NCBI RefSeq assembly: GCF_030253575.1
Contig: NC_080560.1
Location: forward strand, 38,921,001-38,985,000
Length of the DNA stretch: 64,000 nt
Direction of reading: 5' to 3'
Source: Rhododendron vialii
Taxonomy: Eukaryota; Streptophyta; Magnoliopsida; Ericales; Ericaceae
A model generated the notes under the pieces. That model did not search any database and was not told the origin of the DNA. It worked only from the letters and a program-made list of their open reading frames with translations. The position numbers were made by a program, and so were the translations under genes. Shown piece by piece: positions 7,452 to 48,484 of this stretch; positions within the stretch are counted from its first letter, which is position 1; each line of letters opens with the position of its first letter.

Positions 7452-10400
7452 TTTTTTTTTTTTTTTTTTAACATGTCACATTGATTAAAAGGCAACCAAA
7501 TCAGGAGATACAATCTTTACACAAAACAGAATCAAACTCAGGCGGAATACAACCCAACCAAACAGAAGAACAACTATTGATACTATAGGAAGCCAACCAG
7601 TGAGCAGCCTTGTTCTTCATTCTATCAGTCCAGATGAAGAAGGACCAATTTTTTCCTTTTGCCCAAGTCTTGATATCTTCCACCATAGCATGGATTTCCC
7701 ATGGACAGTTAATTCTTCCATGAACACTCTGAATCACCACTAACTATCAGACTCGAAAATCACTTGAGAATAATCTGCATCAATTACTGAATTGCAAGCA
7801 ATCCTTAGAGCCCAGGCCTCTATCGCACAAGCTGAAGACACCTTCACTTTCCCACAACGCCAAAACTGAGCAGTTCCACTACTATCTCTGGCAACTACAC
7901 CAAAGGCGGCAACGCCGCGAGAGGAAGAAAATGCTCTATCAACGTTAATTTTTAAAACCCCAGGAGAGGGAGGGGACCAACTCGAATCATCCCTTTGTTT
8001 GGGTATCACAATCTTTCCAACCATATACGCAGCTTGCAAGTAATCCCCATTTGCCATCTCAGCCTTTTGGATAGTGGTTTTCGGATTTGGCAACTTACCT
8101 TGAAAGATACATTCGTTCCTTGCCTTCCAGATTGCCCAACAAATCTGGAAAATCGCCCCAACTAATTCAGGTGTTGTTTCTTTAGCCAACGTACCACATA
8201 GTAAATCTTCCATCCATCTATCAGCCGAAGTAATAGGGTTCTCAAAAATCCAGAAAGCTTTCCCACTACCAAACCACACTGCTTTAGTCCAAGGACATCG
8301 AAAGAGAATATGTTCAATGGATTCGCTCTCCGTTTCACAGATGGGACAGAGTGGAACTTGGGCACATTTTCTTCAATACAAATTCGATTTACAAGAAACC
8401 CAATTCCGAACAACTTTCCACATGAATAAACGAACCTTTGGAGCCATAGGATCAGCCCACAAACGAGTCCACGCAGACGTTGGAGGAGTATAGGATGTAG
8501 AAGGGGGGGAGACTTTTCCTTTGACGCAACATTTTTTGCTTGACAGTACCTTGACTTCACAGAATAATTCCCAGAGCTAGTATGAACCCAAATTATCTTA
8601 TCCACACCATTCGAGTAGCTAATAGGAATTCGAGAGATTTCTCTAGCTTCCTCAGAAGAAATTGCACTGAATAATTTATCCATATCCCAAGAATGGGTGT
8701 TAGAGTCAATGAACTCACTCACCTTTGCCCATTGTCCATGAGGAGATGGAATAGATTGAACTTTCTCCCCTTGTAAGTTAGGGATCCATCTATCTTTCCA
8801 AAATTCGATGGATTCTCCATTACCAACATTCCACCTTAACCCTTCCCTTAGAAGACCCATTCCTTCTAATAAGCTGCACCAAATCCAAGATGGAGACGGT
8901 CCTCTTTTTGCATCCAAGCTTGAGCAATTTGGGAAATATAATCCTTTCAGTACTTTGACCCAGAGTGCTTCAGGAGAATTGATCAATCGCCAGTATTGTT
9001 TTGCCAACAACGCATTATTAAAAAATGCAAAGTCCTTGAACCCCATCCCTCCATCTTTTTTTGATCAGTCAGCTTCTTCCAGGATCCCCAATGGATTTTT
9101 CCCCCATTATCACCATTCTCCCACCAGAAGTTACTAATGACAGAATTCAATTGGGAGTATAAGCTATTAGGGGCTTTGAAACACATAAACGGGTACATCG
9201 GGATGGGTTGAATTACAGACTCGATTAGAACCTCTTTCCCTGCTTGATTGAGATCTTTGTTGCTCCACCCTTTTATCTTTCCAAGAATATTATCCCTAAT
9301 AAAGCCCATTGATTCCTTCTTCTAATTTCCCCACGAGGTAGGAAGCCGCAAATACTTGGACTTCTTATCCATATCCTTCATATCCAAAATCCCCTTCAGC
9401 TCATCCCTGGTATTTTGACTTGCATTCGCAGAGAACATCACACTAGATTTGTGCAGGTTAACAGAAAGGCCCGAAGCCTCGCTAAAGCCCCCTAGAATTT
9501 GTCTCAAGTTGGAGCAATACCACGTGTTAGCTTCAAAAAAAATGAGAGAGTCATCAGCAAAAAATAAGTGGGATACAACTAGGCACTGCTTTTTCATTTT
9601 AATACCTGCCAGGGACTTGTTTCTCACAGCTTTTTGAAGCATTGATGAAAGAACATCTGCCACCATCAGAAACAAATAAGGGGATATAGGGTCCCCTTGA
9701 CGAAGTCCTCTTTTGGGCTCTACCACACACACTTGCCCACCATTAGCATGGATGGAATACTTCACCGTGCAAACACATTGAGAGATCCAATCAATCCATT
9801 TTTTTCTCAAAACCCAATTTTTCTAGCGCTTTAAGCAAGAAATCCCAGCAAACCCGATCATACGCTTTGTTTAGGTCCAACTTCACTGCCACAAAAGCTT
9901 TCCTCCCTGATTTCATGTGCTTTAGAAAATGGAAAACTTCATGGGCAATAATGATATTGTCTTGAATCTGACGACTGGGAATAAAAGCAGATTGTTGTTC
10001 TGAAATAAGGCCCTGCATGAAAGGTTGGAGCCTATTAGCTAGAACATTCGAAATCACTTTCTAGATGAACCTACATAGACTGATAGGTCGGAAATGACTC
10101 ATAGATTCTGGACTCTTTACTTTTGGGATAAGAGTCACATTTGTTTGATTCCATTCCCGCAGCAGAACACCATTTTGGAAAAAATTCTTAACAACTTCTG
10201 TGACATCATTACCCACAATCTCCCAATAAGACTGGAAAAAAAAGGCCCGAAAACCCATCTGAACCGGGGGCTTTTAGGGGCCCCAATTGGAAAGCAGCAA
10301 GTCAAATTTTCTCACAGTTAGGTGCTTTCACCAGCTTAGCATTCATTTCAGTCGTGACAACTGGATCAATCAAAGAAAGAATCTCCTCAAAATCTCTGTT

Positions 10401-10735
10401 TGGGGGGGCTCCATGTAGCTCTTGAAAGTGAGATTTAATTACCCCTGCCACCTCTTTAGCCTCTGACCTCCAAATCCCATTCCCATCTCTTAATCTCACA
10501 ATTTGCTTTCTCTGTCTTCTATGGATAGTAGAAAGATGGAAAAATCTGGAGATCCTATCCCGCATTCGGAGCCACTTAATTCGTGATCTTTGGTGCCAGA
10601 ACATAGAGTCCTTTTGCCACAAATCTTCTAGTCTACGAGTAAGATCTTCCTCCACCGCAATACACTCTGGATTGAAACCTTGTTCCAGTTGCTTTTGGAT
10701 ACCCACCAACTGATCTTTCAGCATAGCAATTAAAG
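7452..10735 (-). mobile_element. Decayed plant LINE (L1 type), minus strand, 5'-truncated
   Basis: In minus-strand order I see the pre-RT linker (10724-10302), RT fingers and palm (10258-9322) with the catalytic FADD box in HLFFADDSLIF and the upstream GLRQGDPISPYLF motif, RT thumb and zinc-binding region (9309-8162), and a C-terminal RNase H-like domain (about 8050-7501). An 18-base A tail, seen as a T run at 7452-7469, closes the 3' end. The reading frame is broken at several points and the endonuclease domain is missing, so the copy is dead. No target duplication was found, and the 5' limit near 10735 is approximate. Confidence 0.92.
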
Positions 10736-12479
10736 AGCATCACAATGGAATAATCAAAAGTTGCCACATCATCTTTTGGTTATCTTACTAAGGTTAGCAA
10801 TGTAGAAGTCTACAGTGGTACAATCAAAATTAAATAACCAAAATTTGCCACATCATTTTTTTAACTTATAAAATTTAGAAATTGTGACATAGAAAATAAT
10901 TTTTTTAAAATAGTTTTCAAACTAATAAAAATAGGTTATTAGAAAAAGAGAAAATAGTATTTTGAAAATTTTGATAAAAAAAAGTTTTCTGGAAAAAGTT
11001 TAAAAAATAATTTTTGAATAGAAAAAGTTTTATTTTCAAAAGAACAGTTTTTGAAAAAAAAGTTATAATAAAAAAACTGTTTTGAAATAAAACTTTTCAA
11101 AATTTCAAAATCCTAAATTTTGAAATCCCTCATCATCGTACTCTTTTTCTCCCATCTCAAACAAAATAGCTCTCTCTTTCTTCCCAAACCGCGATTCCAA
11201 CCACCACCGACGCACCACACCACCACCATGTTTCCTCTCCCTTGTGATGCTTATCCGGTGCCCTCTCCACGCTTCCAACGCCCCCACATAGTACCACCGA
11301 CGCCCACTGCACACACCACCGACCCCATCGTGCGGCCCTGAAGGAGTCCCATGCTCAGTCCATGCTTGAGCCGGTTGCCTGTATCGATTTCTGTCCAGAT
11401 CTATTTGTGCCCATATTGATTTCCCCTTGTATTTCTATTAGCTTAATATTTATTCTGTAAAATGCAACATTACGATATTACCCATGTGCATAATCTGAAT
11501 CTCACTTAGTAGGTCTGTTTGGAAGGTTGATATAGGTATGCTAGTCTCTCTTTGCCTTTTAGCACCACCGTTTGGTCCTTTTGATGGGGAGGGTCTGTTT
11601 TGGCCCTTTTGCTGGACAAAATGTGGGATATTGGATGAGAATGTTGGAATCACTCTGTACAGATCCATATCTAGGATATTTTTGAAGCATTTGATTTGGG
11701 TCACTCTTGTACATATATCAAATTAGCTATCTGCAATTCCTGATTCTAATCACATTTTGCATTGCTTGTTTCTCTCACATACAGGGGGTTTCCTGCTCTA
11801 TTTCTTGTTGGGATGGAGTAATATAGTTCACTGTTTGGTGTTTCAATGCATGGACTATGAGAATGGATTTGAAAAAAAATTGGAGATGTCCCAACCCTAA
11901 AGCTTGCATTGTTAGCTGTGAGGCATGAAATTAAGAAACAAAGAAAGAATTTGGGTATGTGGATGTTGTTTGTTGAGGCAATATTTTTGTAATGGGGCAA
12001 GGATTATGGTTGAAAAGCTTGAATTTTTGCACTCAAATTATCAATTCTGTAATTTTGCACTCAACTTATAATCTGGTAAAAGAGGAAATGGACCAAGTGT
12101 TCCACCCGAAAAGTAGTACTTCAACGATTAAACTTTTTCAAAATCCAGTAATAAATCACCATGCCAACCAAACAAAATTCAAGAAGGATGAATTTTGAAG
12201 TATTTTAAATCCATTGTCCTGCTTATAATACTACTAATCTTGGCGTTTTAGTGAGCATGAGCATTGAGCAGCAACAAACCATGACTGGGAAAATGGTGTA
12301 ATTCAGTAATTGCCATGGTAATATGAACAATTTTTGGACTGTTGTAACGAAATGAAGATTTCCTTACGCAATCCCTCATGTACAGCATCGAAATTATGCA
12401 ATAGATAAAGCCAAAATTCATTGCGGGGTTTTCCAACCAATGTTCCACTAGCTATTGGAACCGAAAATTCAAAATTTAG
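10736..12479. other. AT-rich spacer, no gene
   Basis: Runs of A and T dominate 10850-11100. A C-rich patch at 11150-11340 has short Pro/Thr/His-rich frames on the plus strand and could be an untranslated leader, but no protein family is evident. Confidence 0.4.
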
Positions 12480-19297: not shown

Positions 19298-19440
19298 AGG
19301 GAAAATGACCTTTAAGGATGTTTTGATAATTAATAATTAATATCCACAAAGACATTTTCAGTATTAAACAATATTCTTAGGTTGTCCTTAACGAGTATTA
19401 ATTATCAAAATCTGAACCGTTATTTTTTCTATTTTCAATG
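19298..19440. mobile_element. Foldback MITE, family also at 36.8-37.1 kb
   Basis: The left end carries gggaaaatgacc and the interior gacattttcagtatta, followed by the inverted half ending in attatcaaaa. The same order of words occurs twice at 36824-37095. Confidence 0.7.
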
Positions 19441-24856: not shown

Positions 24857-25173
24857 AAAAGTAGTAGGAGTCAGGTACAAGTAACCCTTGTTGATTAAAA
24901 GGTACAAGTAACCCTTTATTCCGAGGAAAAGTCCCAAAAAGTCTCACCTTTGATTGAATGAAGTAATGACCCTTAAAAATACAGGTATCTGCATAACCAG
25001 TCCACCAAGGCAAAGAACCCACATGGGTTAAGTACAGTAGTTTTGGTTACCCACATAACTAACCATTAATCAATCCATTGGCTCAATCAATCTCCTAAAA
25101 CAAGTAGAGTAGGAGGAAGTGGGTAACCCATATTAACCCATCTCCATTTGACTCTCATTCCTCCCAAACTTCC

Positions 25174-25181
25174 CTATATAA
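25174..25181 (+). promoter_or_regulatory. TATA box of the LTPG gene
   Basis: The sequence ctatataa lies 116-123 bases before the ATG, followed by a CT-rich leader typical of plant transcription starts at about 25205. Confidence 0.65.
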
Positions 25182-25296
25182 CTCTGCACTTTTCCCTCTT
25201 CCTTCCACAACATCACCAACAAACACTCTCTCCTTCCCCCAGCAGCAACAAATCGTAGCCCACTGCCATTTTCTTCAACAAATCCGACGACTCCCA

Positions 25297-26593
25297 ATGG
25301 CTCGTCAAGCAATCGGTTTTGGCCTAGTCCTGGTTGCCGTATCGGTGCTGTGGGCTGGAGCAGCGGCTCAGTCGTCGTCGAGTTGTACCAATGCGTTAAT
25401 AAACATGGCGCCTTGCCTCAACTACATAAATGGAAACTCCTCAAACCCCCCTTCGGGATGCTGCACGCAGCTGAGCAATGTAGTTGAATCGCAGCCTAAG
25501 TGCTTGTGTCAGGCCCTTAATGGTGGCGGCTCCCTTGGGATTACTGTCAATCAGACTCGGGCACTGGAACTTCCTAAAGTTTGCAAGGTTGAGACTCCAT
25601 CCAGTAGCAACTGTAATGGTAAGGATGTGTTGCAAATGCTAGCTGTTCATCAACTGTCTTGTGATTACAGTCTAACAATGTTTCCTTCTGATTTCGGTAT
25701 CAAAAAACAAGAGCCAGGCAAAAATGTGTTCCTTGCTAAGCCGTAATAAGCTTCTTCAAGTGGAAAACGATTTTCTGTTTTTCGAACGTGTAAATGTTTT
25801 CCAGACATAACGAGACCCACCAGTCTTCCTAACGCCACAACCATTGCCGATGCCACCACCCCACTAACATCTCCATTGCAGCTGGCATAACCAGGTCCAC
25901 CACCACGGCTGCTGGGACCACCAACCCCACCAACTACCTCCCTGCCACCACCATGACTGCCATCACCAACCTTGTCACTACAACCACACCACCATCCCAA
26001 CACCATATCAACCCTCATCATTAACAGCACTAGCAAGGAAAATCATTTGACATTTTCACATATGTTTTATGTTGGAATGCATTTTCCCTGAAACAAAACT
26101 AACTTATAATCATAACACCAAAATGCTAGACAACGAGGCCATGTATCTCTCTACTAACTTGTGACATCTCTACCTAAGCAGGTGCTTCCCCGACGGGCTC
26201 TTCCTCAGGAACACCAGCATCTCCAACCACAAAAACTCCAACTACATCACCTTCAGGTAAAATGTTTTCCTTAATTGACATGGATTGAATAGCTATATGG
26301 CAGTACGATCTCTTTTCCCTTTGCCATATGTTAGGGTGATATAGAACCATTTACATGTTGGCAGTTAAAAAAGCATCAGCCTACCATCTCTATAGAAAAC
26401 TTTCAACCGTTCCAACGTATTATATGAAGTTCATGTTGCTTTTTACATTGATGTAGGAACTGGGTCAAAAGCTGTGCCATCAACAGACAGCAGCTCATCC
26501 CCTTCAGATTCGAGTTCTACAAAGATGACAGTTTCTCTGTCTTTTGTCCTCCTGTTCATTGCATCTTATTTTTCAACCTCCACAATTTGCTGA
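25297..26593 (+). CDS. GPI-anchored non-specific lipid-transfer protein (LTPG)
   Basis: Three exons, 25297-25618, 26182-26256 and 26457-26593, splice in phase 1 with GT-AG sites and encode 177 residues. Residues 1-24 form a signal peptide ending in AGAAA. The mature part has the eight-cysteine lipid-transfer pattern: Cys 30, 40, 55-56 (CC), 69 and 71 (CLC), 96 and 106. A Ser/Thr/Pro-rich linker (108-154) and a hydrophobic tail (SLSFVLLFIASYF) fit GPI anchoring at the plasma membrane. Members of this family carry wax or cutin lipids to the cell surface; the specific lipid here is unknown. Exon 1 also stays open past its donor into the intron, but exons 2 and 3 supply exactly the expected linker and anchor. 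The 563-base first intron has a CCA-rich stretch at 25880-26030. Confidence 0.93.
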
Positions 26594-30594: not shown

Positions 30595-32244
30595 TCAACC
30601 ATGTGACCGTGAGCGCATAAATTCTTCCAATTTGTCCCACACCTCAAGCGCTGCAGCTCTATCCTGGTGCCTCTTGTTCTTGCTAATCTGCAGAGTCATC
30701 AAAGACAAGTACAATAAAGACATTTTCACTAGAGGAAAACAACATAATGAAACTCCTGGCTTGATCACAGTATCAGACAAGAACGAATAGCTCTGAGACT
30801 CTGAGTAAAAATATGCTCACCGATATAATTTTCACATTCCATTGCTTGACAATCTTAGCTGACTCCACACTATCATCCTCGAAACGCATATAGAATCCCA
30901 GAACTGCACAAGAAATTAGCACCCACAAAATTTCAGGATTTATGTTTCTCTTTCCATTTCATTCAGTTCAACAAGGTCACTATGGTTATGAGCCTGTAAT
31001 CATATCTAAGAGCACCGATAGTTCATATTTAAAAGCCTGCAATCCTAATGCAAACGAAGATATGAATCAAAAGAGTAAGGTTCATACTGTACAAAAATCA
31101 GATTAAAACCCAGATAAGCCAAAAGGAACAAATGTACATTCCAATAGCCCAACCACACAATTTCATGATCAATTTAATACCAAACACAATTGAAGCAAAG
31201 AAAAACTTTCTCACTTTTATTGAAGATTTCCACATGGTCCTTGAAAGGCCAATCCTTGAACTGCCACTCCTTCCCCAACACGAAAACCGCCACCACCCTA
31301 TCCCAATCCTCGGCCTTCAGCGCCGATGGCTTATCCCTCACCTCATACGCGGTCACAACCCTATCCCTACTGAACTTCTTCTGCACCGTAACACAGTCTG
31401 GCTTCGCCACCTTCACCTGCTTCATCTTCGCATCCGTCGGTATAAAAACTCCGTCCTCCAAAAACTCCTTCACATTATAAATCGTAATCAGCGTCTGCAA
31501 CGCGCTCGGCACCAATATAATCGGCACCCCTTCCCCTGCCTTCCCCCCTTTCACCCCCATCTTCGCCCTAGGCGTCGAATCATACCCTAACCCTAACTCC
31601 TCCCCAAACCCTCTCTCATCCCCCCTCATTAACCGATTCTTCGCCACCAACCCGTCCTTCCTCTGCTGCGAATCCGACCGCTGCCTCTCCTCCTCTCTCC
31701 TCGCCGCGGCCTTCAAGACCTCGTAAAAATCCTTATTCTTGCACTCCAAAATCGCCTCCCGGTCCCTCACCGGCCTCTCCGCGGCCCTAATCATCTCTAT
31801 GTAATTCTCAGACAACCCAACCCTAGAAACATCCTCATTGACGTCTAGCCCGGGGTCGAACCGGGGGTCGAGGCCGGGGTCCTCGGGGCGATATTCGGCA
31901 GCGGGGGCGGGGGAGAAGTTAGGGTTGACGTACTGGACGGCGTCGGAGGAGGAGACGTGGCCGAGGAGGTAGTCGAGGAGGGGCTTGCGGTCGATGAAGG
32001 AGACGGTGGGGACGGCGAGGGGCTTAATGTTCTTCATGTAGTCGGTGTACTTGAGGTGGCTGTGCTTGAGGAAGTGGATCAGGGTTTCGAGGGTGAAGAG
32101 GTGGCCTTGCTTGGAGCGGTAGGCGGTGGGGGCGGCGGCGGGGAAGGAGTAGTCGGAGCCGAAGCGGAAGTCGTCGTTGACGCGGACGATGCTGTCGAGG
32201 TCGTTGCGGATGGCGTAGTCCCGGAGGACGGAGAGGGGATCCAT
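30595..32244 (-). CDS. CDC73: CDC73 / parafibromin homologue, Paf1 complex subunit
   Basis: Minus-strand exons 32244-31215, 30903-30821 and 30687-30595 join with GT-AG introns and encode 401 residues, close to the plant family length of about 415. Residues 1-95 are the conserved CDC73 N-terminal domain (starting MDPLSVLRDYAIRND). A charged middle region includes RREEERQRS, and residues about 239-396 are the Ras-like C-terminal domain (GVPIILVPSALQ, then KEWQFKDWPFKDHVEIFN across the first junction, and ISKNKRHQDRAAALEVWDKL at the end). In plants this nuclear protein works with RNA polymerase II in the Paf1 complex, promoting H3K4 methylation and FLC expression. No breaks were found. Its 5' coding part has been copied to 40164 in a chimeric gene. 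Confidence 0.96.
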
Positions 32245-35934: not shown

Positions 35935-36823
35935 ATTTGTAAATATTGAAGCAAAAAATTTAATAAAGAGAAAGCTTGTCAAAATATTCAAAGAATTCAA
36001 CAAGTTGTGAACGATTTAAATTACCAAGGTTCTATGTCTTTTTTTTTCCCCTCAAAATCATCTATGCAGCTATGGCTGAACGTAGTGGTCGTTGAAGGAT
36101 TTTGCTATCAAAGGAGTGACTGTTTGGTTATGGTTGCATGGGTAATTTGGGCAGTAGGCATTGCAAAATGTGTTGACATCATGATTTTCTGGTAAGAATC
36201 TGACGGTGAGTTAATAGATGGGGAATCTTGACAATTGCTTCAAAACAATTGTTTCAAAAGTAGGGAAGGTCAGTGATATTTCAGAAACCTCAAGGGAGGT
36301 CTCCGTCTTTGTCAGAAACCTCAGGAAGGTCAGTGAAATTTGTTCCTTCAACTTTTTTGTTTGAAAACAAATTAGTGAGTGACGATTTGTCAAGTCATGG
36401 ATCGGATTTATGACATCTTTTCAATTTTCACCTTATTTTTAAGTCTGTTCCATGCACAGGGGCGGGAGAAAAATATTGGTGAGAGATTTTTTCTTTTTGT
36501 CTCGTGCATTGAACAGACTCAACACCAATTACCAATTATTCTATAGTACTTACTACTACGGAGTAGTACTACCTCTGCTTCAAAATATTTTATCAGTTCT
36601 GCAAAACGAAAACTTAAACATAATACCGTTTCTTTAAAAAAAATTCAAACTTTTTTTACACATTAAAAAAATTCATTGGCCTCTAGTAAATTGTTAAAAA
36701 CAGATTGAATTTTTCTTTACAAAATTGTGTTAGCTTTAAATTAGTGTTTTGGCAGATCCAACAAACATTTTCGAACTAACAGAGTAGATTGGATAGGCCC
36801 ACGTAGACCCAAACCCATAACTT
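35935..36823. other. AT-rich spacer, no gene
   Basis: Only short unrelated frames. A local near-repeat, aggtcagtgatatttcagaaacctca and aggtcagtgaaattt, lies at 36267-36342. Confidence 0.45.
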
Positions 36824-37095
36824 GGGGAAAATGCTGGCCAATAATATATTTTGATAATTAATATTCGATAAGAACATTTTCAGCATTAATAAATATTCTC
36901 AGCATATTCTTAACGAATATTAATTAGGGAAAATGACGGCCAAGAACGTGTTTTGATAAATAATACCCGCCAAGGACATTTTCAGTATTAACAAATGTTT
37001 TTAGCTTGTCCTTGACGGGTATTAATTATCAAAACACGTCCTGGGCAGTTATTTTCCCTATTAATTATTAAAACACGTCTTGGGCCGTCATTTAG
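36824..37095. mobile_element. Nested or tandem foldback MITEs
   Basis: A copy opening with gggaaaatgctggcc (36824) is followed by a fuller copy from about 36926 with gggaaaatgacggccaag. Its halves pair through cgccaaggacattttcag and the inverse gtccttgacggg, closing with ttattttccc at about 37060. Another closing end follows. The pattern suggests one copy inserted into another. The same family occurs at 19298-19440. Confidence 0.75.
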
Positions 37096-37716
37096 TTATT
37101 TGCAAGATTAGCACAAGGATTCCAATGTGGGTTTTGTTAGGCCCACAGTTCTGATGTAGAACACGTGGAGACCCAATTTCATGATCAATTGGATCGGTCG
37201 AAGCCTCAGAAGCTCAAATGTTGTTTAATTGCAAATTACCTGATTTGGCAACTTTCAAACAAACTTGGATCGGGCCTAAACTTGGTGGGCTGACTTATTT
37301 CTGCGTTGCGGTCGATACTCATGAACCATAGGTTGATGATTAATGGTGTTTTTAGGCCTAATTCATTCGTTTAGGCCTCAAATTGGACGTTTTTGCCGTT
37401 TTAAAAAATATTTGTTTCGTTAATAACTTTTAGCGTATAATTCCGTAAAAGTTAATTCTTTTTGGGAAAGCCATGTTTTTCTTTCCTTTTTTCGATTTTA
37501 TTATTTTTTCCAAATTTTGAGAATTTTCGTTTTTGAGTTAGGATTTTGCTAGGGTTACGTTTTTTTTTTCCTATAAAAGGAGTTGTAACCTAATATTTAT
37601 GCATATTTTTATTAATAATATTTAGACTTTGTCTTTTTCTCTCGTGGACTCAAGTTTATCATTCGTTCGATTCGATTAGTACGTAACTAGTCTTTTGTGA
37701 ATTCTGATGTGTCAAG

Positions 37717-37730
37717 TGGTATCAGAGCCA
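37717..37730 (+). other. Primer-binding site (initiator tRNA-Met)
   Basis: The sequence tggtatcagagcca is the standard complement of the 3' end of plant initiator tRNA-Met. It lies 2 bases after the 5' LTR end. Confidence 0.9.
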
Positions 37731-37972
37731 CGTTTTTCCTAGTTTGATGGCACCAAACATGGCTGAAGAAATACCCATTGACGTTGGTCGTGGGCTTGCT
37801 GACCTGAGGAAGATGATGGAAGATAATTGAACACAGTTGCAAGATAGAAGCACTCAATTAGCCGAGATTCGTCAAGATATTCACACTCAGTTTCGCAGAG
37901 ATCCGTGAGTTGCTGCAAGGGTTGACTCTACAAAATCGCCAAAGGCTAGAAAAGATTGAGAAGGATCGCGCG

Positions 37973-38586
37973 CAAGGGCGAAACTGTAGTATGGCTGCCA
38001 TGGGCTATAGCCCAGGTCACATTCCAAAAAATAATAATTATATGTAAATGTTAGTTAAAATAGTTTTAGCCCAACCATTTTCGTCTTAAGCCCAATCCAT
38101 TTTAATTAGCCCAGCCTTCTTTCTTTGAGGAAAACCCAAACAAAGTCTTGATCGATTTAGGAAAAACACCGTAAACAAAATCCCATCCTTTCTTTGAAAA
38201 TAAAATTAAATCAACTATGGAGATTGGAGTTACAAAATCTTCTGATGTGGAGATGAAGATCGGCGGCCTAATCGTCAGAATCGCATCATAGTTCGCCGGA
38301 GTCTTGGATTGATCAAATGGGGAAGTTGGGGTTGGTTTTGCCTTTGAGGAAGAAGAAGTTGGGGTCGGTTTTGCTTGCAAACTTGTTGAAAATATCCACT
38401 CAGGTTCGATAATAAATTATTTTTACTCTCTGAAACATCGTAGATACAACTTGTATGTTTCTTGTACTTTTATTTTGTTTATTTTTTAACATTTTCGTAT
38501 TTATGTACAAGTTTGCCTCTTTTTTTGTTCATATATATAAAATTTGGGTTAGCCTAGGGCAAAATTAATTTCTGATTCCGCCCTTG
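37973..38586. mobile_element. Non-autonomous hAT element, 614 bp, 8-bp target duplication
   Basis: The ends are CAAGGGCG and CGCCCTTG. The word atcgcgcg is duplicated at 37965-37972 and 38587-38594. It disrupts the gag gene of the LTR element and lacks a transposase. Confidence 0.92.
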
Positions 38587-40163
38587 ATCGCGCGTTGGGA
38601 TTTTCCCATCACCAACCTCCTAACCAAAATAGGAACCGCATTGAGGGATATGTTCGCAACCAACCTATTCTCTAAAACGTCTCCGGAGGATATTCTTATT
38701 ATCACTACGATGATAGGAATGAATTTGACGCGCTATTCGAGAACCATGATGATTATCAGTCGATAAAGCGACAAGCAAATTTCAGGTATTACGATAAGTT
38801 GACACAATTTAGTGGTCTTGAATTTTTTGAAGATCGTTTGGATTGGATATTGGATTTTTGATGATTTTTTTGAGTATACGAAAACTCCTTCCGAACGAAG
38901 GTGGAGGTTTTTACTATTGAAGCTTACAAGCCTAACACTACAATGGTGGTTAAAATTACAATCGTCAAGAGATCGATTGGGCAAGCGTCAAATTCATGCA
39001 TGGTCGAGAATTAAAAGACTTTTGGTGGAGAGATTTTTGTCATAGAATTATGAGGAATTACTGAAGGAAAAACATGGACCAAAGCAACAAAATACAATTA
39101 TTATTATCAAAGATGTCGTTGAAGAAGTTGTCAAAGAGGTTGTGATTCAAGTTGATGAACCAAAAATTGAAACGGAGGTTGATGATAAGACAAATAATAT
39201 AGAAGCCGTGGATGATGTCATATTCAAAATTGATATTAAAAATAATAATATTGATATTGGTGATCAAGTTGTCGAGGACCAAAATAGTTATACATTGGAG
39301 GTGTTTGATATTGATATTGGTGCCAAGGAGGAGATTTTGGTCAACAACATTGGTGAAGGTAAATTGGTGTTTGAAAACATAAATTCAAAAGAATCGGCCA
39401 ACAATCAAGTCAGAGCATACATACACTGAATGGATTCAAACCATAATTGCTGGCATAACAAAATTAATGTTGCTTCAATCGATTTTCTTGGAGTGCAACA
39501 ATTTGATTGGGTTTCCAATATTCGTTTAGTACATCTTGTCAACAAGTTGAAGTATGAAGAAAAAAGATCATCGCAAATACATTTTTCCATGAATTTTTAT
39601 TTGAAGTTAAGAAATGAGTTGAAGCATTCAAATTATCTATTTCTTTGGCATGGAAAGAAAAGGAAACTGACGTAAGACAAAATTCTAAAAGATTTTTTTC
39701 TTATTTTTATGATTCCAGAATTATAAAAATAAGAATCTAAAATCTTATGTAGAATTGGAATTTTATTTTTGAAATTATATTATTAGGAAATCTTATTTGT
39801 GCTACATGTTTTACATGTTTTTAATCTTTTTGTTTTGGCATGATTTAGGATTTCTTTTAAGAATTTTCTTTTATTTTATTTTAAAATTTTATTAGTCTTT
39901 TATTTTATTTTATTCTTTATAATTTCTTAACTAGCAAGAAATTGTGTTACTAGATTCCTATCTAACATAGAATTTCTCTATTAGTATAAATAAAGGTTGT
40001 AACTTATATAGTTATTCACCTTTTTCATCAATAAAATTATAAGATTATTTTTTTTGCTTGTAGACTCAAGAACTCGTTTGTAGAAGCAAACATTTATTTC
40101 GTTTAAATTAGTACGTAACTAGTATACTGTGAATTCGCTGCATCAAGTTCTCTCTGTGCAACA

Positions 40164-41183
40164 ATGGATCCCCTCTCCGTCCTCCGGGATTACGCCATCC
40201 GCAACGACCTCGACAGCATCGTCCGCGTCAACGACGACTTCCGCTTCGGCTCCGACTACTCCTTCCCCGCCGCCACCCCCACCGCCTACCGCTCCAAAAT
40301 AGGCCACCTCTTCACCCTCGAAACCCTAATCCACTTCCTCAAGCACAGCCACCTCAAATTCACCGACTACATGAAGAACATCAAGCCGCTCGCCATCCCC
40401 TTCATCTCCTACCTCGACCGCAAGCCCCTCCTCGACTACCTCCTCGGCCCCGTCTCCCCCTACTCCTCCGACGCCGTCCAATTCGCCAGCCCTAACTTCT
40501 CCACCTCCGCCGCCGAGTCCTCCGGGACAGCTTCGAGGCCGTTCGATCCCTCTCATGGCGTAGAGGATCTCATGGAGTGGTCCACAAACGATAATGTGAC
40601 CACTTCCTCCTCTTCAAAAGAACAGCAAGTGGATTCGATCAACTCCAAATTCGACGAGATCGCTTTGACGCCGTTCGATGAGATGATGACTTTGAGGCCG
40701 TTCAATCTGTCCGACGTCGAAGATCTGATGGAGTGGACCACGGACGATAACGTGACCCGCTTCTGCCTTTTCGAAACGTACACTTCGAAAGAACAGGCAG
40801 TGGATTTCATTACCAACATAGCGATTCCTCATCCATGGCTGAGAGCAATATGCCTGAAAAACAGGGCAATTGGGTCAATTTCAGTGGCACCAGGTTCAGG
40901 AATTGGCGCGGGGAGGGGCGAAATCGGGTACGCCCTAGCATCAAAGCATTGGGGCAAAGGGATTGTCACGAGGGCGGTGGAAATGGCGGTTTCGAGCGTG
41001 TTTTCGGAGTTGCCACATCTGGTGAGGCTGGAAGCTTTGGTCGATGCGGAGAACTTGGGGTCTCAGAGGGTGATGGAAAAAGCTGGGTTTCAAAGGGAGG
41101 GTGTGTTGAGGAAGTATGCTTTTATTAAGGGGAGGTATAGAGATTTGGTGACGTTTAGTCTTGTCCGCTTCGACGTTCCTTAA
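40164..41183 (+). CDS. Chimeric protein: CDC73 N-terminal domain fused to GNAT acetyltransferase
   Basis: An uninterrupted, intronless frame of 339 codons. Residues 1-95 match the CDC73 N-terminal domain encoded at 32244, with 8 differences by eye (seven or more conservative), and homology fades by about residue 118. Residues 124-164 are a degenerate first copy of the GNAT start (VEDLMEW and NDNVT, then SKEQ). Residues 176-339 form a whole GNAT domain of the RimJ/RimL type: TLRPFNLSDVEDLMEW, the acetyl-CoA loop region GEIGYALASKHWGKGIVTRA, NLGSQRVMEKAGFQREG and a C-terminal RYRDLVTFSLVR. It is nearest to the GNAT at 42675-43238. The start codon is 18 bases past an LTR end, and about 15 of those bases resemble the CDC73 5' leader. 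Acetyltransferase activity is inferred from the fold; the substrate is unknown. The open frame over both parts argues for a recent or functional gene. Confidence 0.9.
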   Translation: MDPLSVLRDYAIRNDLDSIVRVNDDFRFGSDYSFPAATPTAYRSKIGHLFTLETLIHFLKHSHLKFTDYMKNIKPLAIPFISYLDRKPLLDYLLGPVSPYSSDAVQFASPNFSTSAAESSGTASRPFDPSHGVEDLMEWSTNDNVTTSSSSKEQQVDSINSKFDEIALTPFDEMMTLRPFNLSDVEDLMEWTTDDNVTRFCLFETYTSKEQAVDFITNIAIPHPWLRAICLKNRAIGSISVAPGSGIGAGRGEIGYALASKHWGKGIVTRAVEMAVSSVFSELPHLVRLEALVDAENLGSQRVMEKAGFQREGVLRKYAFIKGRYRDLVTFSLVRFDVP

Positions 41184-42674
41184 TTTTTGAATAGTGGTTG
41201 AGACCTAAAAGTACTTATTTCACATGAAAGTGTTCGGAACTGTGTTTGGCAACTCGGCATCATAGACTCGCGGTGACACTAATGCAGGATCATGGATATA
41301 GTTCGATAATATTTTTCTGGGTATGACATTACGAAGTATATAAGCTAATTTTGGATGAATGGTTTGTCCATTGCAACTCTTGATTGACGCATTGCTTTTT
41401 GTCAGTTTACATTCCCACAAATACTGGTTTGAATGGATCATTCTAATCAACTTTAAAGAACACCGAACCCCGATGAGTTGGTCCAGTAGGAGTATAAAGC
41501 GAGCATGAGAAGAAGTAAGAGGTTTACTTTTGAGTCTGTAAAGTTGACTTTTACTGCCAACAATTTTTTTTTGAAGCCGATAACGATTTGCTCTGTAGTT
41601 AACTTTAAATTGTTGAAATTGATTGAGGTGCCTGTAAATTAACAAGAATACCCAATTATCTTACCTGAACACATCAGCCATCAGGCATGCTACGGGTATA
41701 TTGGACGGTAAGTATAGTCAAAGCCGGCTCTGGGCATAAACCTACCAGGCGGTTAGGCCTCTCATTTTGGTTCCAATTATAGGGCTTCCAAATAGAAGAA
41801 ATCTAATAAATACTATTATGTATGTCAATTATTTTGTAGGTAAGTTTGTGTAGTTCAGGGGTAAGGAGCACTTGTGCTACATGAGAAACCCAAGTTTGAA
41901 TCCCATCCACTCCAACTTTTTTAACATGAACACCTTTGAACTTATACAAAAAATCGTTTGGAAATGATGTTGCCGTGGTTCAACCACGCGACCAACACTT
42001 CCTATGAAAAGGTCAAACGAATTGCCATTGCACTACAAACCATTTATGCTCCAATACTCCAAATACCAACTTTTGAGAGGTTCCATTTTCAAATCTCGCC
42101 TAGACCTCGAAAATCTCGAGGTCGGGCCTGAGTATAGTTCAAAGGAATCCCCTCTTTGGTGTTGGGTAGAGGCATGGTAAATTAGTCAAATAGGGGACCT
42201 AAAGGAATAGAATACAGAGTTGATCATTGAATTGCAAGTAAACTGGAAAAAAAAAAAACATTTCGATCATTGGACCTAATCATCCACCCAAACCAAAAAT
42301 ATTTTGCAGCAATGTAACATACCCACGAAAAGTATCATCATCCATGATGTTGCATTAGCATCACTGCGATGCCAACACAGAATTTTGAAACACTTTTATT
42401 TAAATATTTCTACGCTTCTATTCTGTTGGAGGTGGGAGTTCGTTAACAGTTTAAACCCGGAGAGATTACATACAAAGCAGTCACAAATCTCTTTATTGAT
42501 TGATTTGATTCAGTACACAAATCTGAAAATTACAAACTCACACGTGTATATCACCTCACGGCTCACACACCTCACAAACTGAACTCACTACTCTCTCTCT
42601 CTCTCTCACAGATTATTCTCACTCTCTCTCGGCCCACCTCACATGTGCAAGATTAACTTTCAACATATTCAAGA
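41184..42674. other. Spacer between chimera and GNAT gene
   Basis: No gene. At 41845-41925 a tRNA-like stretch occurs (TAGTTCAGGGGTAAGG as A box, AAGTTTGAATCCC as B box), probably the head of a plus-strand SINE whose end I could not set. A CT run lies at 42588-42607. Confidence 0.45.
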
Positions 42675-43238
42675 TTAAGTAACATCAGTGCGGTCCGTGC
42701 GGAGAAGACTGAACATCACCGCATCTCTAGACGTTCCCTTAATCAAAACATACTTCCGCAGCACACCCTCCTTGTGAAACCCAGATTTTTCCAACACCCT
42801 TTGGGACCCCAAATTCTCAACATCAACCAGAGCTTCAAGCCTCTCCAAATGTGGCCACTCCAAAAATAGAGTTGAAACCACCATTTTCACTGCCCTTGTG
42901 ACAATTCCTTTGCCCCAATACTTTGATGCTAGAGCATACCCAATTTCGCCTCTCCCCACACCAATTCCTGAACCTGGTGCCACTGAAATTGACCCAATTG
43001 CTCTGTTTTTCAGGCATATTGCTCTCAGCCATGGATGAGGAATCGCTATGTTGGTAATGAAATCTACAGCCTGTTCTCTGGAAGTGTAGGTGTCCCAAGT
43101 GCAAAACTGGGACACTTTATCGTCGGTCGCCCACTCCATAAAATCGTCGATGTCAGACAGATCGAGCGGCCTCAAAGTGATCTCAGAAAATTCATGGTGA
43201 TTGGTTTCTGGGTTGGAGGATGATCCATCACCATCCAT
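42675..43238 (-). CDS. GNAT family N-acetyltransferase (RimJ/RimL type)
   Basis: A single-exon minus-strand gene of 187 residues from ATG 43238. The frame continues upstream to 43313, but the downstream ATG begins a Ser/Asn/Glu-rich leader like that of the family. Features: TLRPLDLSDIDDFMEW strand and helix, acetyl-CoA binding segment GEIGYALASKYWGKGIVTRA, and NLGSQRVLEKSGFHKEG. The central third is almost identical to the chimera at 40164-41183, so one derives from the other or both from a recent common copy. Likely transfers acetyl from acetyl-CoA to an unknown amine in the cytosol. A Mutator-like element begins about 225 bases upstream of the start. Confidence 0.92.
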   Translation of the reverse strand: MDGDGSSSNPETNHHEFSEITLRPLDLSDIDDFMEWATDDKVSQFCTWDTYTSREQAVDFITNIAIPHPWLRAICLKNRAIGSISVAPGSGIGVGRGEIGYALASKYWGKGIVTRAVKMVVSTLFLEWPHLERLEALVDVENLGSQRVLEKSGFHKEGVLRKYVLIKGTSRDAVMFSLLRTDRTDVT

Positions 43239-43463
43239 CTGGAAGGCTTTCTCTTTTAGGGTTTGGTGGGTATAGAGTAGAATGGAACGTCTAAGGCACA
43301 AAGCATTTAGCACTAGAAAATGTTTCGTGTGATATTAATATAGGAACCAAGATTGAAGGATTCATACTTTAGTATATAAATTACTTGGAGTGGTGTCCAA
43401 GGAAGTGATACCGTAGGAAGAAGGGAGGTAAGTTCAATGGAAATCTTAAATGGATTTTTTAAA

Positions 43464-44717
43464 GGGTAAATTATAGTTAACCCCCTCAAACTATGTTTCG
43501 GAGACACTTTACCCCCTCAAACATTTATTTTTAGCACTTAACCACCTCTAACTAATGAAAATGCAAAATTGACCAACTTCTGTTAGAGAGTGGATGTAAG
43601 TTACTGTTTTGCCCTCTATTGAAAAAGAAAAAAAGGAGGGTTCCAAGAACAAACCATTCCACAGTCTCTCTCTCGTCTCTTCCCCACCAAGATTCCGAAT
43701 TTCCACAAACCCAAAACTTTAATCTACTCATAATCGACAACACAAACTGAATCTCAACCTCAATCTCCTCAAACCTTAACTCTAGAAGATTACCCAAACC
43801 CACAAAACCCAGATCAACCACAGGTATATCAAACCCATTTATTTGCCAAAATCCATTTTATAACAGAGCTTTCTCCGGGCAACCAACCCACCGCCCTCAC
43901 TGCCAGCCGTATACTCACCACCGGATTCTCCAAACGGTGCCGTACAGAAGCAGCAGTTCTCCGTTCAAGTCTCGTTTCCTCTAACATCACGTAATCGCCA
44001 ATCGCTCCTCCAGTCACTAAGCTCGACCCGCCGCCGCCAACACCACTCTATTCTTGGTAGAAAACGATAACTAGGCTCCATTGAAGGACTCCCCGCATTG
44101 AAGTAGAATAATTAGTGAGCCTCTGATTCTGAACAAGAGAGAGAGAATATGTATACAGTTCGCTTTGGATCTGCAGCAGAGGGCATGGGAATGTCAACAT
44201 CATGAGTTGTTAATTGAACTTGAAATCGAACTCGCCGAGTAAATTCAAACTCACCTTGCGCACAGTTGGTTTCTGGAAATGCAAAACCCAACTTGAAATT
44301 GCCGTTTGCAAAATCAATAGGGAACACAACAGCTCGAATCCAGGTGGAGTAATTTATTGGAACTCTTCATCTTCTACGGCTGCTGCTTCTAGTGGCACTT
44401 TGTAAACGCCGGTTACCACATCATTTTCTGGTACCCGCAGCAGTGGTGTGATTTGTTCATTGTTTTGGTTGCCGTTTTTGGTTTGGTACCCGCAGAGAAA
44501 GGGCCTTTTCAAAAAAGAAAAAGAAAAAAGAGAACAGGCACAAATGTCTCCATTTTTCAGATGAGAGGAAATGTGACATTTTCCATCCAATTTGTAACAG
44601 AATGCTAACAGAAGTTGCATTTTCATTAGTTAGAGGTGGTTAAGTGTTAAAAATAAAAGTTTGAGGGGGTAAAGTATCACCGAAGTATAGTTTGAGGGGG
44701 TTAACTATAATTTACCC
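43464..44717. mobile_element. Mutator-like element with long TIRs, Pack-MULE candidate
   Basis: Inverted repeats of about 110-115 bp begin gggtaaattatagttaaccc on both ends. The 9-base word ttttttaaa is duplicated at 43455-43463 and 44718-44726, as in Mutator transposition. The 1 kb interior has no transposase. It has a different, more GC-rich composition at 43850-44060 with a CT-rich leader and splice-like caggtatatc, so it may be captured host gene sequence. I cannot identify the source gene. Confidence 0.9.
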
Positions 44718-44726
44718 TTTTTTAAA

Positions 44727-45979
44727 AGATAACTTTGTTTGGTTTAGATTTTAGAAAGTTATTTTTGAGAGTTGGAGTGGTAATGAGTGGAGAGAGATAG
44801 AGAGAAAGATTTATTGAAAACTGTGCCGAGAGTTGAGAGTTACTCTCAAAAAGTCCATCCAAGCAAAGTGAAAGGAAAGCACTTTAATGGACCTGAATAA
44901 AGTGCAGTCAAGATTATCAGAAAGAACTCAAGATTTATTTGTTCTACAAAATGTAGAAATGAGGACTAGAAATCAGTCGCAAGTTTTTTTTATTATCAGA
45001 CATTCAAGATTTTATTTATTTAAAAATAATAATTTACAGGACTACACCGTGTAGTTTAGGCCCGTTGACTTATCATAGACCCAATTCAAATGAGTAATTG
45101 AGGTTGCGAAGTTAAGGTGGTTGTGGTGGTGCAGCGGCGGCAAGCAGAGGAGATCGTGGGGAGTAGCAGCGGAGGACCAAAGGAGGACGTGGTGGAGCAG
45201 CAGTGGAGGAGCAGAGGTGGAACCAGAGGTGATGCACCAGCGGAGATTTGGGGGAGTAGCGGCAGCGGCAGTTAGGTTGATAGGGTTATAGTTTGTTGTG
45301 GGCTGGCGGATTGCAAATGGGCTTGGCCCAATTAGCTTGCAATTGGTGTGCTTGTTTGGGCTTGGGGTGTTTTGGAGTTTGTTTAAACATTAGGTGCTTT
45401 TGGACTTGTCCTATTGGGTGTCTGTTGGTTTCTTGCTAACAGTGTCATAGTACTAAAAATTCGAGAGGTGGAAAGGTAGGTTAAGATATCACAAGAAGAA
45501 GTTGCTCAATGCATTTTTTTTCCTACTATATTGTACTGATTTCTTCTTAAATCCTTGTGATGAATAAAATTATTTTTGCCGATGAAAAAAAAGAGGGGAG
45601 AGAGGCACATGCCGCACCTAGTTTCAGATTAAATGATTTAATAACTTTAGAATATGTGTAATTGTTAGTATGATTGGCGTTTTCCGAATTTTGTCAAAAC
45701 CATTGGAGTCTGTATTGTTCTTTTTTCATTTGGGTTTGGGAGATGGTTCTTTTATTTTATGTTGTCTAGACACTCCGCACGATAAATAAAAAATATTGAG
45801 AAGCTTTTGCCTTAAAGGATGCTCAGATAATGTTCGAAAGAGATATATGCATTCATATGCATTTATCGTAATGTTTCGATAGAGTAATCAAAATTTTAAT
45901 TCAATGGCATTAGCTCTCTTAGTTTGTTTTATGGGAAATGGAGGGAATTTTTTCTAAGGCATTAAGAGTGTTTGATTGA
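44727..45979. other. Spacer with a probable LINE 3' tail
   Basis: At about 45290-45590 a GT-rich segment with gggcttg repeats ends in gtgatgaataaaattatttt and an A-run at 45585-45592, like the 3' UTR of plant LINEs elsewhere in the window. A GGC/GGA-rich patch lies at 45115-45290. No intact gene. Confidence 0.4.
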
Positions 45980-46960
45980 CCTCGGTCTGAAAGAGAAATT
46001 TTTTCTAAGCCACAGAATGGACAGTGTGTTGCACTCGCGGGGCGCTTTCCTAGTGCTAGCAAGCGCTAGCTTTCCCTTGCATGTGCATCCCGCGTGTGTC
46101 CCCTTATGTGCACCTACCTCACCAAATCTGAACCATTTGCCTTGCTGGCGTATTTTAAAGGTAGCGCGTGCTAGCGCTATGCCAGTGCTTGGTTATCTCC
46201 AGCATTAGTCTTTTGCCTTGCTAGCGCATTTTTTAAAGGTAGCGCTGTGCTAGCGCTTGGTAGCACTCATGTGTCGTCCTCTTATTGGCTCCTTGTTGGG
46301 GTCTGCTCTTGCCACTATAAATACTTTTTATTCACACAATTAGGGCACGAATTTTTGCAGCCATTTTAGAGAGAGAGAGCACTCTTCTCTCTATTCATTT
46401 GCGCACAAATTTGCATTTGATGATTTAGATCTTGTATCTTGGTCATCTTTAGTCAATCTAGAGAAATGCTTCATTTCTCATGTATTCTTTCTAGATTGTT
46501 TTAGTTTGCAAAAACAAAAATCTTCATTTCTCTAAAATTCACTCATACATGCCGATGATACTACTTGGCTGGATGATTCTGGAGCCACGGTGAGCGGAGA
46601 TCGAGGTGTTGGACTCGTGGTGGCTATGGGATCAAGAAGGAGCTCGGGGAGCTACATCAAAATGGTGGAGTTAGGTTAAGCTTTTGGGGTAAAGTTGTAA
46701 TTTCTCTCTTATCACTTTGTAAACCTTTTGATCTATAGCAAATTTGGTAGTTAGGCCGTGGTTTTATGCTTAGGGTGTGTTGACCCTAAGTAGTTTCCAC
46801 GTATATTCTCGCGTTGCATTCTTTAGATTTATTGTTATTGACTTTAATTGTTAAATTGTTAGAATAGCATTGAACTTGGTTAATGGATTAAAATTGGAAG
46901 TTGCGTGAATTTTTAATTGGTTGTCCTATTCACCCCCTCTAGGACTCTTCTAGTGCTTAA
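45980..46960 (+). mobile_element. Possible LTR with repeated AGCGC motifs
   Basis: Several copies of gctagcgc and tagcgct at 46050-46260 are followed by a TATA box (actataaatac, about 46313) and a leader. Further on comes attcaccccctctaggactc at 46929-46948, a phrase typical of plant LTR-retrotransposon ends. TG and CA limits and a target duplication were not established. Confidence 0.45.
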
Positions 46961-47510
46961 TATAATTTCAGTAACCTTTTGGCTATTGATTTAATGATTT
47001 TATCATTAGCGGTTAATTTACTCTAATTACCATCTGGAGTTCAAATTCTGACTCCGTCCCGAAAATTATCTATCCAAGAATTATCTAGTTTGATTCAACT
47101 ATCACTCCTATGATTTCATTACTTTTGTTTTTAAGTCTATTGTCCAGGTGTTCGAACCAGTTTGTGTAAGGTCGTGCACATCGACTAATCCTCGGGACGA
47201 ATTCTACCGTCCAATTGTTGGGCTCTCGGCTCCCAATTACAGCCAAATTCGAGTCATTGTCAACCTCACACGAATTTTATTTTTTCAAAAGATAAGTATA
47301 TCGAAATTAGATTAATTGCCAAACTTGTTTTTCAATGGATGATCTATACTGTAAGACTTATAAAATGCATCAAAAAAATAATCAATGTGCAGACCATTTT
47401 ATGATACTTCAGAGTGCGGAGAATCCTTTCCGTTGATTTGTTTTTAATGGAAATACACGTCCTAAGTTAAATACTCAAACAATTTATTTACCAAAGGACT
47501 ATGCTACAGT
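46961..47510. other. Spacer with SINE-like debris
   Basis: Around 47150-47280, words such as atcgactaatcctcggga recall the bodies of the two minus-strand SINEs at 34.8-35.9 kb. No gene. Confidence 0.35.
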
Positions 47511-47852
47511 AACAGTAGCTTCAGCATAGACAGCGCGTACAACGTACGTTTGGGCCCGTCTTGGGTCTAACAAAGATAGGAGCCGTTCATTTTATTCAAT
47601 ATATTTTGCTTAAGGTCCCTGCAAAAAATTGGTTCCATCCGATATCGATAAAGGCGTTTACTAAAGCGATTTTGGACGCTTCGTATACGCCCTTATTGAT
47701 GTAGGATGGAGCTGATTTTTTGCAGGAACCTTAAGCAAAATATATTGAATAAAATAACCTGCTCCTGATTATCTTTTTTGAGCCCAAAACAGATCCAAAC
47801 GCACGCTGTACGCGCTGTCTGTGCTGAAGCTGCTGTACCATCAGCATAGCAT
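47511..47852. mobile_element. 342-bp foldback MITE upstream of GNAT gene
   Basis: The outer ends atgctacagtaac and catcagcatagcat pair. Inner halves pair through tattcaatatattttgctta and taagcaaaatatattgaata and through agacagcgcgtac and gtacgcgctgtct. It ends 110 bases before the GNAT start codon. Confidence 0.88.
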
Positions 47853-47962
47853 TTCTGTTTACGAAATCATAACTCACAATGTCGTTGACTACACAGTGAA
47901 GTCTTTTTCTAACCCCTCAAAGTCTTTATTTCTACAGGCCTAAGCAATTCTTGATCACCATT

Positions 47963-48484
47963 ATGGAATTCAATTCTCAAGAAATCTCAATCCGCCCATA
48001 CGAAATCATCGACGTAGATGACTTCATGATCTACGCCGGTGACGAAAAAGTGACTCGATTCACCCGATGGGACACCTTCACTTCCAAAGACTCTGCCACG
48101 GCCTACATCAAGGACACCTGCATCCCCCACCCTTTCTGTCGATCGATATGTCTGAATAACCGTTCGATCGGATTCCTGTTCATCAAGCCCGCGTCTGGTT
48201 ACGACATGTGTCGGGCAGAGGTCGGATACGCTCTTGCGGCCGAGTACTGGGGGAGAGGGATAGTCGTTAAGGCTATGAAGATTGCTGTTTCTGAGGCAGT
48301 CAAAGTGTTTCCAGAGTTGTTGAGGTTTCAGGCTTTGGTTGAGGCCGAGAACAAGGCATCTCAGAGGGTGTTGGAGAAAATCGGGTTCTTTAGGGAAGGC
48401 TTGTTGAGGAAGTATACTTTCAACAAAGGTGAGGTGAGGGATATGGTGATTTTTAGTCTCTTAGCTACTGATCCCATGCTTTGA
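47963..48484 (+). CDS. GNAT family N-acetyltransferase (RimJ/RimL type)
   Basis: Single exon, 173 residues, from ATG 47963 (MEFNSQEISIRPYEIID). Domain signs: DVDDFMIYAGDEKVTRF, the acetyl-CoA binding stretch EVGYALAAEYWGRGIVVKA, and NKASQRVLEKIGFFREG near the C-terminus. It is clearly a paralog of the GNATs at 40164-41183 and 42675-43238 but more distant from both than they are from each other. No breaks. A foldback MITE ends 110 bases upstream and may form part of its promoter. Substrate unknown. Confidence 0.92.
   Translation: MEFNSQEISIRPYEIIDVDDFMIYAGDEKVTRFTRWDTFTSKDSATAYIKDTCIPHPFCRSICLNNRSIGFLFIKPASGYDMCRAEVGYALAAEYWGRGIVVKAMKIAVSEAVKVFPELLRFQALVEAENKASQRVLEKIGFFREGLLRKYTFNKGEVRDMVIFSLLATDPML

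Follow-up and report, generated by a model that had tools for sequence, protein, structure and literature searches.

A CDC73 N-terminal domain joined in frame to a GNAT acetyltransferase behind an LTR retrotransposon in Rhododendron vialii

Within a window of 64,000 nucleotides of the Rhododendron vialii genome (contig NC_080560.1, positions 38,921,001 to 38,985,000, numbered here from 1), a single open frame of 339 codons from its ATG (40164-41183, plus strand) encodes the N-terminal domain (NTD) of CDC73, followed by copies of the start of a GNAT acetyltransferase and by a GNAT domain. This fusion frame is real and unbroken. With a probability of roughly 0.5, it represents a locally formed chimeric gene that, if expressed, would be transcribed from an LTR and would give a GNAT enzyme with the CDC73 NTD as an appendage. 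Most weight is placed on such an enzyme because the GNAT domain is complete and constraint is clearer in that half.

The fusion frame, its parents and their neighbourhood

From stop to stop the frame extends over 354 codons, the longest frame among 500 dinucleotide-Markov sequences being of 264. Pfam searches with hmmscan located CDC73_N at residues 2-109 (52.7 bits, cut-off 27) and Acetyltransf_3 at residues 176-310 (94.2 bits, cut-off 25.4), the latter match being full-length (profile positions 3-138 of 138), so that the 339-codon frame, which begins with ATG, and its two domains stand as originally predicted. The Ras-like CDC73_C domain, present in the parent CDC73, gave no Pfam match in the fusion. 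Over the aligned codons 100 of 115 residues agree with CDC73, and the first 95 codons contain 8 amino-acid differences, which matches the 87 of 95 residues first reported as kept; the N-terminal part of CDC73 is there as proposed, its aligned piece ending at about codon 117 and not at about 118. In the GNAT part 127 of 163 residues agree with the neighbouring GNAT, and the acetyl-CoA segment, which had been predicted to persist, does so as HWGKGI, aligned with the same segment in solved RimJ-type enzymes. The complete GNAT domain occupies 40683-41180 (plus strand) and includes in-frame methionines at 40683 and 40686 (Met174/175), possible GNAT-only starts just before the conserved GNAT start.

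Both likely parents had been placed in the window, and across the genome that contains it (532.6 Mb in 13 sequences) the nearest relatives are indeed the CDC73 and the GNAT found there. The fusion protein has 15 matches genome-wide, the best after itself being the GNAT at 42675-43238 (76% identity), whose position was correctly predicted and whose strand has to be corrected to minus. The CDC73 frame (31174-32244, minus strand) matches at 85% identity, and matches on other chromosomes reach 59% or less. Moreover, a genome search for the CDC73_N family returned two places, CDC73 and the fusion (all three candidates scored). The CDC73 frame, parent of the N-terminal half, is the first coding frame of its gene, probably exon 1, and carries both CDC73_N and CDC73_C. 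The closest relative of the GNAT half is an intact frame of 187 amino acids that scores 93.8 bits with Acetyltransf_3, as against 94.2 for the fusion, and another GNAT frame of this cluster, less closely related, lies at 47963-48484 (plus strand). The fusion differs from CDC73 at 25 of 345 aligned bases, and its GNAT half from the neighbouring GNAT at 75 of 489. Upstream of the minus-strand GNAT, two stretches of about 140 bases (43461-43599 and 44581-44720), inverted relative to each other, share 87% identity.

The locus numbering of Arabidopsis reflects chromosomal position. In the window, a lipid-transfer frame (25111-25746) is followed by CDC73 (31174-32244) and the GNATs (42675-48484); table rows from three papers on Arabidopsis list At3g22600 as lipid-binding, At3g22590 as Cdc73 and At3g22560 as GNAT. 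Judged by locus number, the same neighbourhood thus seems to exist in Arabidopsis, and the fusion therefore probably arose inside an old gene neighbourhood. The matches elsewhere in the genome to the 3′ flank of the fusion frame (41150-42420) are all partial and repeat-like, and Rfam returned nothing at gathering scores across the window. Elsewhere in the window, frames at 7740-10739 (minus strand) resemble by eye a LINE-type reverse transcriptase and RNase H.

Anatomy of the join and the retrotransposon upstream

The block derived from CDC73 (40149-40513, plus strand) comprises about 15 bases before the ATG and codons 1-117, and blastn aligned it at 91% identity with 32257-31901, the start of the CDC73 gene. 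It is followed by a junction of 17 bases (40514-40530, plus strand) assigned to neither parent. The original prediction described a two-part join of CDC73 and GNAT; the fusion frame holds, with the addition of two partial copies of the GNAT start between the halves. The first of them, copy A (40531-40640, plus strand), is shortened and in frame, matches the full GNAT start at 84 of 102 aligned bases and gave no Pfam match when searched alone. The second, copy C (40656-40679, plus strand), is only 24 bases long, and its score was reached by none of 1000 shuffles against each of three partners. Such staggered GNAT starts suggest template switching or slippage.

Further into the GNAT half, a tract at 40803-40906 (plus strand) contains 1 difference in 104 bases with respect to the GNAT at 42675-43238, as against 75 in 489 overall, a pattern matched by none of 20000 permutations; in addition, the longest run free of differences between the GNAT half and its neighbour measures 62 bases (p=0.0015). 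The tract looks like the product of gene conversion between inverted neighbouring GNATs. In the CDC73 half, the first 111 bases are quiet, with 1 of the 25 differences (permutation p=0.011). Retroposition of CDC73 was considered as a source of this half; the copied part, which sits inside a single unbroken coding frame of CDC73, would fit a copy made through RNA as well as one made as DNA.

An LTR retrotransposon (37152-40145, plus strand) adjoins the fusion on its 5′ side, with a 5′ LTR at 37152-37714 and a 3′ LTR at 39668-40145 (both plus strand), the latter beginning with TG at 39668, finishing with CA at 40145 and ending 18 bases before the fusion ATG. The stretch 39640-40160 has at least 66 further matches in the genome, many of them partial (best 40 of 79 candidates); among these 66, 14 start at 39667-39668, 10 start 3-16 bases before that point, and 17 have their end at 40145-40151. 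The related LTR start at 37152 is marked likewise, as 34 of the 40 matches listed begin at 37149-37152 (best 40 of 1024 candidates). Directly after the end of the 5′ LTR at 37714 comes AGTGGTATCAGAGCC, which we take to be of the primer-site type of plant LTR elements, and AGTTC flanks the retrotransposon on both sides (37147-37151 and 40146-40150), as a target-site duplication would look. The two LTRs share 68% identity over 154 bases by blastn and, when aligned globally with many gaps, agree at 337 of 421 aligned bases. Among the matches listed, the 3′ LTR reaches up to 84% identity, near full length, with copies elsewhere, and the 5′ LTR up to 88%. Each LTR is thus nearer to copies elsewhere than to its partner, which argues against a simple single insertion and renders the history and age of the element uncertain; for the same reason, dating by the LTR pair was rejected. 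A relative on another chromosome lacks the inner stretch 37973-38585 of the retrotransposon. Beside the element there is also a fold-back (MITE-like) repeat (36822-37065), with a second copy in the window at 19298-19433.

The homology to CDC73 stops about 5 bases or less from the point where the retrotransposon inserted. It was not detected on the far side of the element, where a search for a longer copy of the CDC73 promoter gave a best score that 178 of 200 shuffles reached. The 3′ LTR contains a TATA motif, TATAAATA (39985-39992, plus strand), and no ATG occurs between 39950 and the fusion's own ATG at 40164, which makes the LTR the obvious promoter candidate. The 3′ LTR is therefore put forward as the likely promoter and leader of the fusion.

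A possible course of events can be proposed from these features. A copy of the CDC73 start (about 15 bases of leader and codons 1-117), made either as DNA or via RNA, would have landed in inverted orientation some 8 kb from its source, ahead of an older tandem GNAT copy and in frame with it. Short steps of template switching or slippage may then have made or reworked the join, leaving the two stuttered GNAT starts as a linker. The LTR retrotransposon, ending 18 bases before the ATG, most likely supplies the promoter and the leader. If expressed, the likeliest product would be an acetyl-CoA-dependent GNAT with a CDC73 NTD, its role being that of the neighbouring GNATs rather than that of a PAF1C subunit.

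Constraint, decay and the likely product

Pairwise comparison of the GNAT half with the neighbouring GNAT gave a Ka/Ks of 0.31 (bootstrap 0.18-0.50). A codon model was fitted to the fusion together with 7 of the 13 other GNAT places in the genome, eight sequences in all; of the remaining six, two have an inner stop, one is open and three are short and partial. The fusion branch had an omega of 0.37, significantly different from 1 (p=0.034) but not from the background omega (p=0.27). In six settings that varied in the frequency model (two), the topology (two) and the inclusion of the conversion tract, omega on this branch ranged from 0.31 to 0.44, and omega=1 was rejected (p<0.05) in four of them, those with the fusion as sister of the neighbouring GNAT. 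The two settings without rejection (p=0.31 and 0.14) had the fusion nearer to the outgroup, a topology with a lower codon likelihood that is yet preferred by a FastTree protein tree (support 0.82). As a control, the branch of the intact neighbouring GNAT gave omega values of 0.21-0.37 and rejected omega=1 in none of the six settings, which points to a low power of the test. Altogether, constraint on the GNAT half along its branch is moderately supported. The synonymous distance amounts to 0.38 in the GNAT half and 0.105 in the CDC73 half, and if such distances are a guide, the fusion branch probably predates the joining of CDC73. Since the branch would include time before the join, the constraint concerns the enzyme, not selection on the fusion.

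The CDC73 half gives a less uniform picture. Its NG86 Ka/Ks is 0.64 (0.26-2.04), and omega is 0.78 under equal codon frequencies (p=0.57 against 1) and 0.06 under F3x4 (p about 1e-6 against 1), a spread ascribed to the GC content of 95% at third positions. The original prediction would have been undermined by a dN/dS near 1 in both halves; it falls below 1 in the GNAT half, and the value for the CDC73 half, 0.06 to 0.78 by method, settles nothing. The first 65 CDC73 codons show no significant deficit of amino-acid changes (Fisher, p=0.16).

It is on these data that the strongest competing explanation has to be weighed, namely that the frame is a relic without function: two pieces would have been joined in frame by accident, and the result would be silent or decaying and open only because of its youth. 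We regard it as a tentative possibility to be taken seriously. Neutral copies of the CDC73 piece simulated with 17-25 random substitutions keep an open frame in 58-79% of cases, and the mean number of amino-acid changes in those that stay open (11.4-17.3) brackets the 15 observed. A relic would also agree with the even spread of the CDC73-half differences over codon positions (9/8/8), with the lower CDC73_N score of the fusion piece taken alone (55.3 bits versus 66.8 for the parent piece) and with a join lying directly behind a retrotransposon. It fits less well with a GNAT half that is constrained in most settings and scores like its intact neighbour (94.2 and 93.8 bits), with the F3x4 estimate of 0.06 for the CDC73 half and, as a weak point, with the sole indel in the aligned CDC73 codons, of 6 bases and frame-keeping.

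According to another explanation, which we consider unlikely, only the GNAT part matters, through a start at Met174/175 (40683/40686) or an unfused transcript, the CDC73 piece being a leader. The in-frame ATG ATG just ahead of the conserved GNAT start and the clearer constraint in the GNAT half would suit it, but the CDC73 ATG is the first ATG after the TATA of the LTR and would be met first, in a context (ACAATGG) nearly that of the parent (GCAATGG).

A third group of explanations concerns what the CDC73 piece could bring. The original prediction had the fusion carrying an acetyltransferase to the complex of CDC73 or acting as a competitor of CDC73. Neither role is supported so far, as the fused piece (about residues 1-117) is the whole NTD only. 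Residues 1-111 of human CDC73, this same domain, were crystallised alone (PMC5688130; PDB 5yde), and the NTD mutant L64P still forms PAF1C (PMC5688130). In the human protein the functional nuclear localization signal (NLS) spans residues 125-139, chromatin association is promoted by the Ras-like domain at residues 357-531 (PMC5688130), and the Ctr9-binding domain of CDC73 comes after the NTD (PMC13289920). The fusion lacks the stretches matching these three regions, so the idea of delivery to PAF1C is weakly founded, and we infer that the NTD is not a PAF1C tether. Moreover, two simple basic NLS patterns found no match in the fusion. The domain may still have nuclear partners, given that a nucleolar signal has been proposed inside the human NTD and that L64P weakens the contact with the Set1 complex (PMC5688130); passages of PMC5467213 were uninformative on the NTD.

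With the whole NTD present, all 12 positions aligned with published groove residues of the human NTD are the same as in the parent CDC73 (one of them, L67 in PMC5688130, reads V by our count), but the chance of 15 changes missing 12 of 115 positions is about 0.2 by a hand estimate, so their retention is unremarkable. It would be a long shot that the NTD with its kept groove binds a CDC73-NTD partner, of Set1 type or other and not PAF1C, making the product an LTR-driven, chromatin-linked acetyltransferase derived from two stable neighbouring genes; if true, a novel type of transcription-linked enzyme would have arisen in a single plant lineage. That the fusion brings an acetyltransferase to CDC73 partners, or competes with CDC73, appears highly improbable. 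Finally, an assembly artefact can be practically dismissed. The differences from the nearest relatives (25/345 bases in the CDC73 half, 75/489 in the GNAT half) make a simple assembly join unlikely, a mere joining of parent sequences would not account for the GNAT-start copies or the LTR, and haplotype A of R. vialii, if rightly taken as the genome used here, was assembled from PacBio HiFi reads with 5 gaps (PMC10338486).

The GNAT enzyme with an NTD appendage thus remains the preferred reading. Were it expressed, some 12 kb would contain a young fusion gene together with both of its parents, its stuttered join and its retrotransposon promoter, and a comparison of related species could then put the stages of its formation in order. 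Such a gene would also offer a natural test of what the CDC73 NTD does alone, as the function of the groove in the human NTD is stated to be unclear (PMC5688130).

Comparison with known systems

The combination of CDC73 with an acetyltransferase or GNAT was not found among the papers searched, in line with the original statement that no such fusion had been described, although search zeros are not proof of absence; the word acetyltransferase is absent from the main text of a Cdc73 survey of 227 eukaryote proteomes (PMC13289920). Compared with CDC73/parafibromin, a subunit of the Paf1 complex, the fusion retains residues 1 to about 117, that is, the NTD, and lacks everything past it, including CDC73_C and the regions used for complex assembly and nuclear import in the human protein. 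With the RimJ/RimL-type GNATs of plants it shares the complete Acetyltransf_3 domain and the WGKGI acetyl-CoA segment, whereas its N-terminus is replaced by the CDC73 NTD and the repeated GNAT starts. The At3g22560 group is likened to the GNAT of the fusion by neighbourhood only.

As a plant chimeric gene the fusion belongs to a well-known kind. In four Oryza species 310 fusion genes were described, more than 44% of them expressed (PMC9199173). Like the Type I fusion genes of that work, the Rhododendron frame is built from copies of two parental genes that both survive. It additionally carries stuttered GNAT starts and a 5′ LTR and, unlike most expressed Type I cases in Oryza, where 2 of 35 had parents in the same region (PMC9199173), its two parents share one region.
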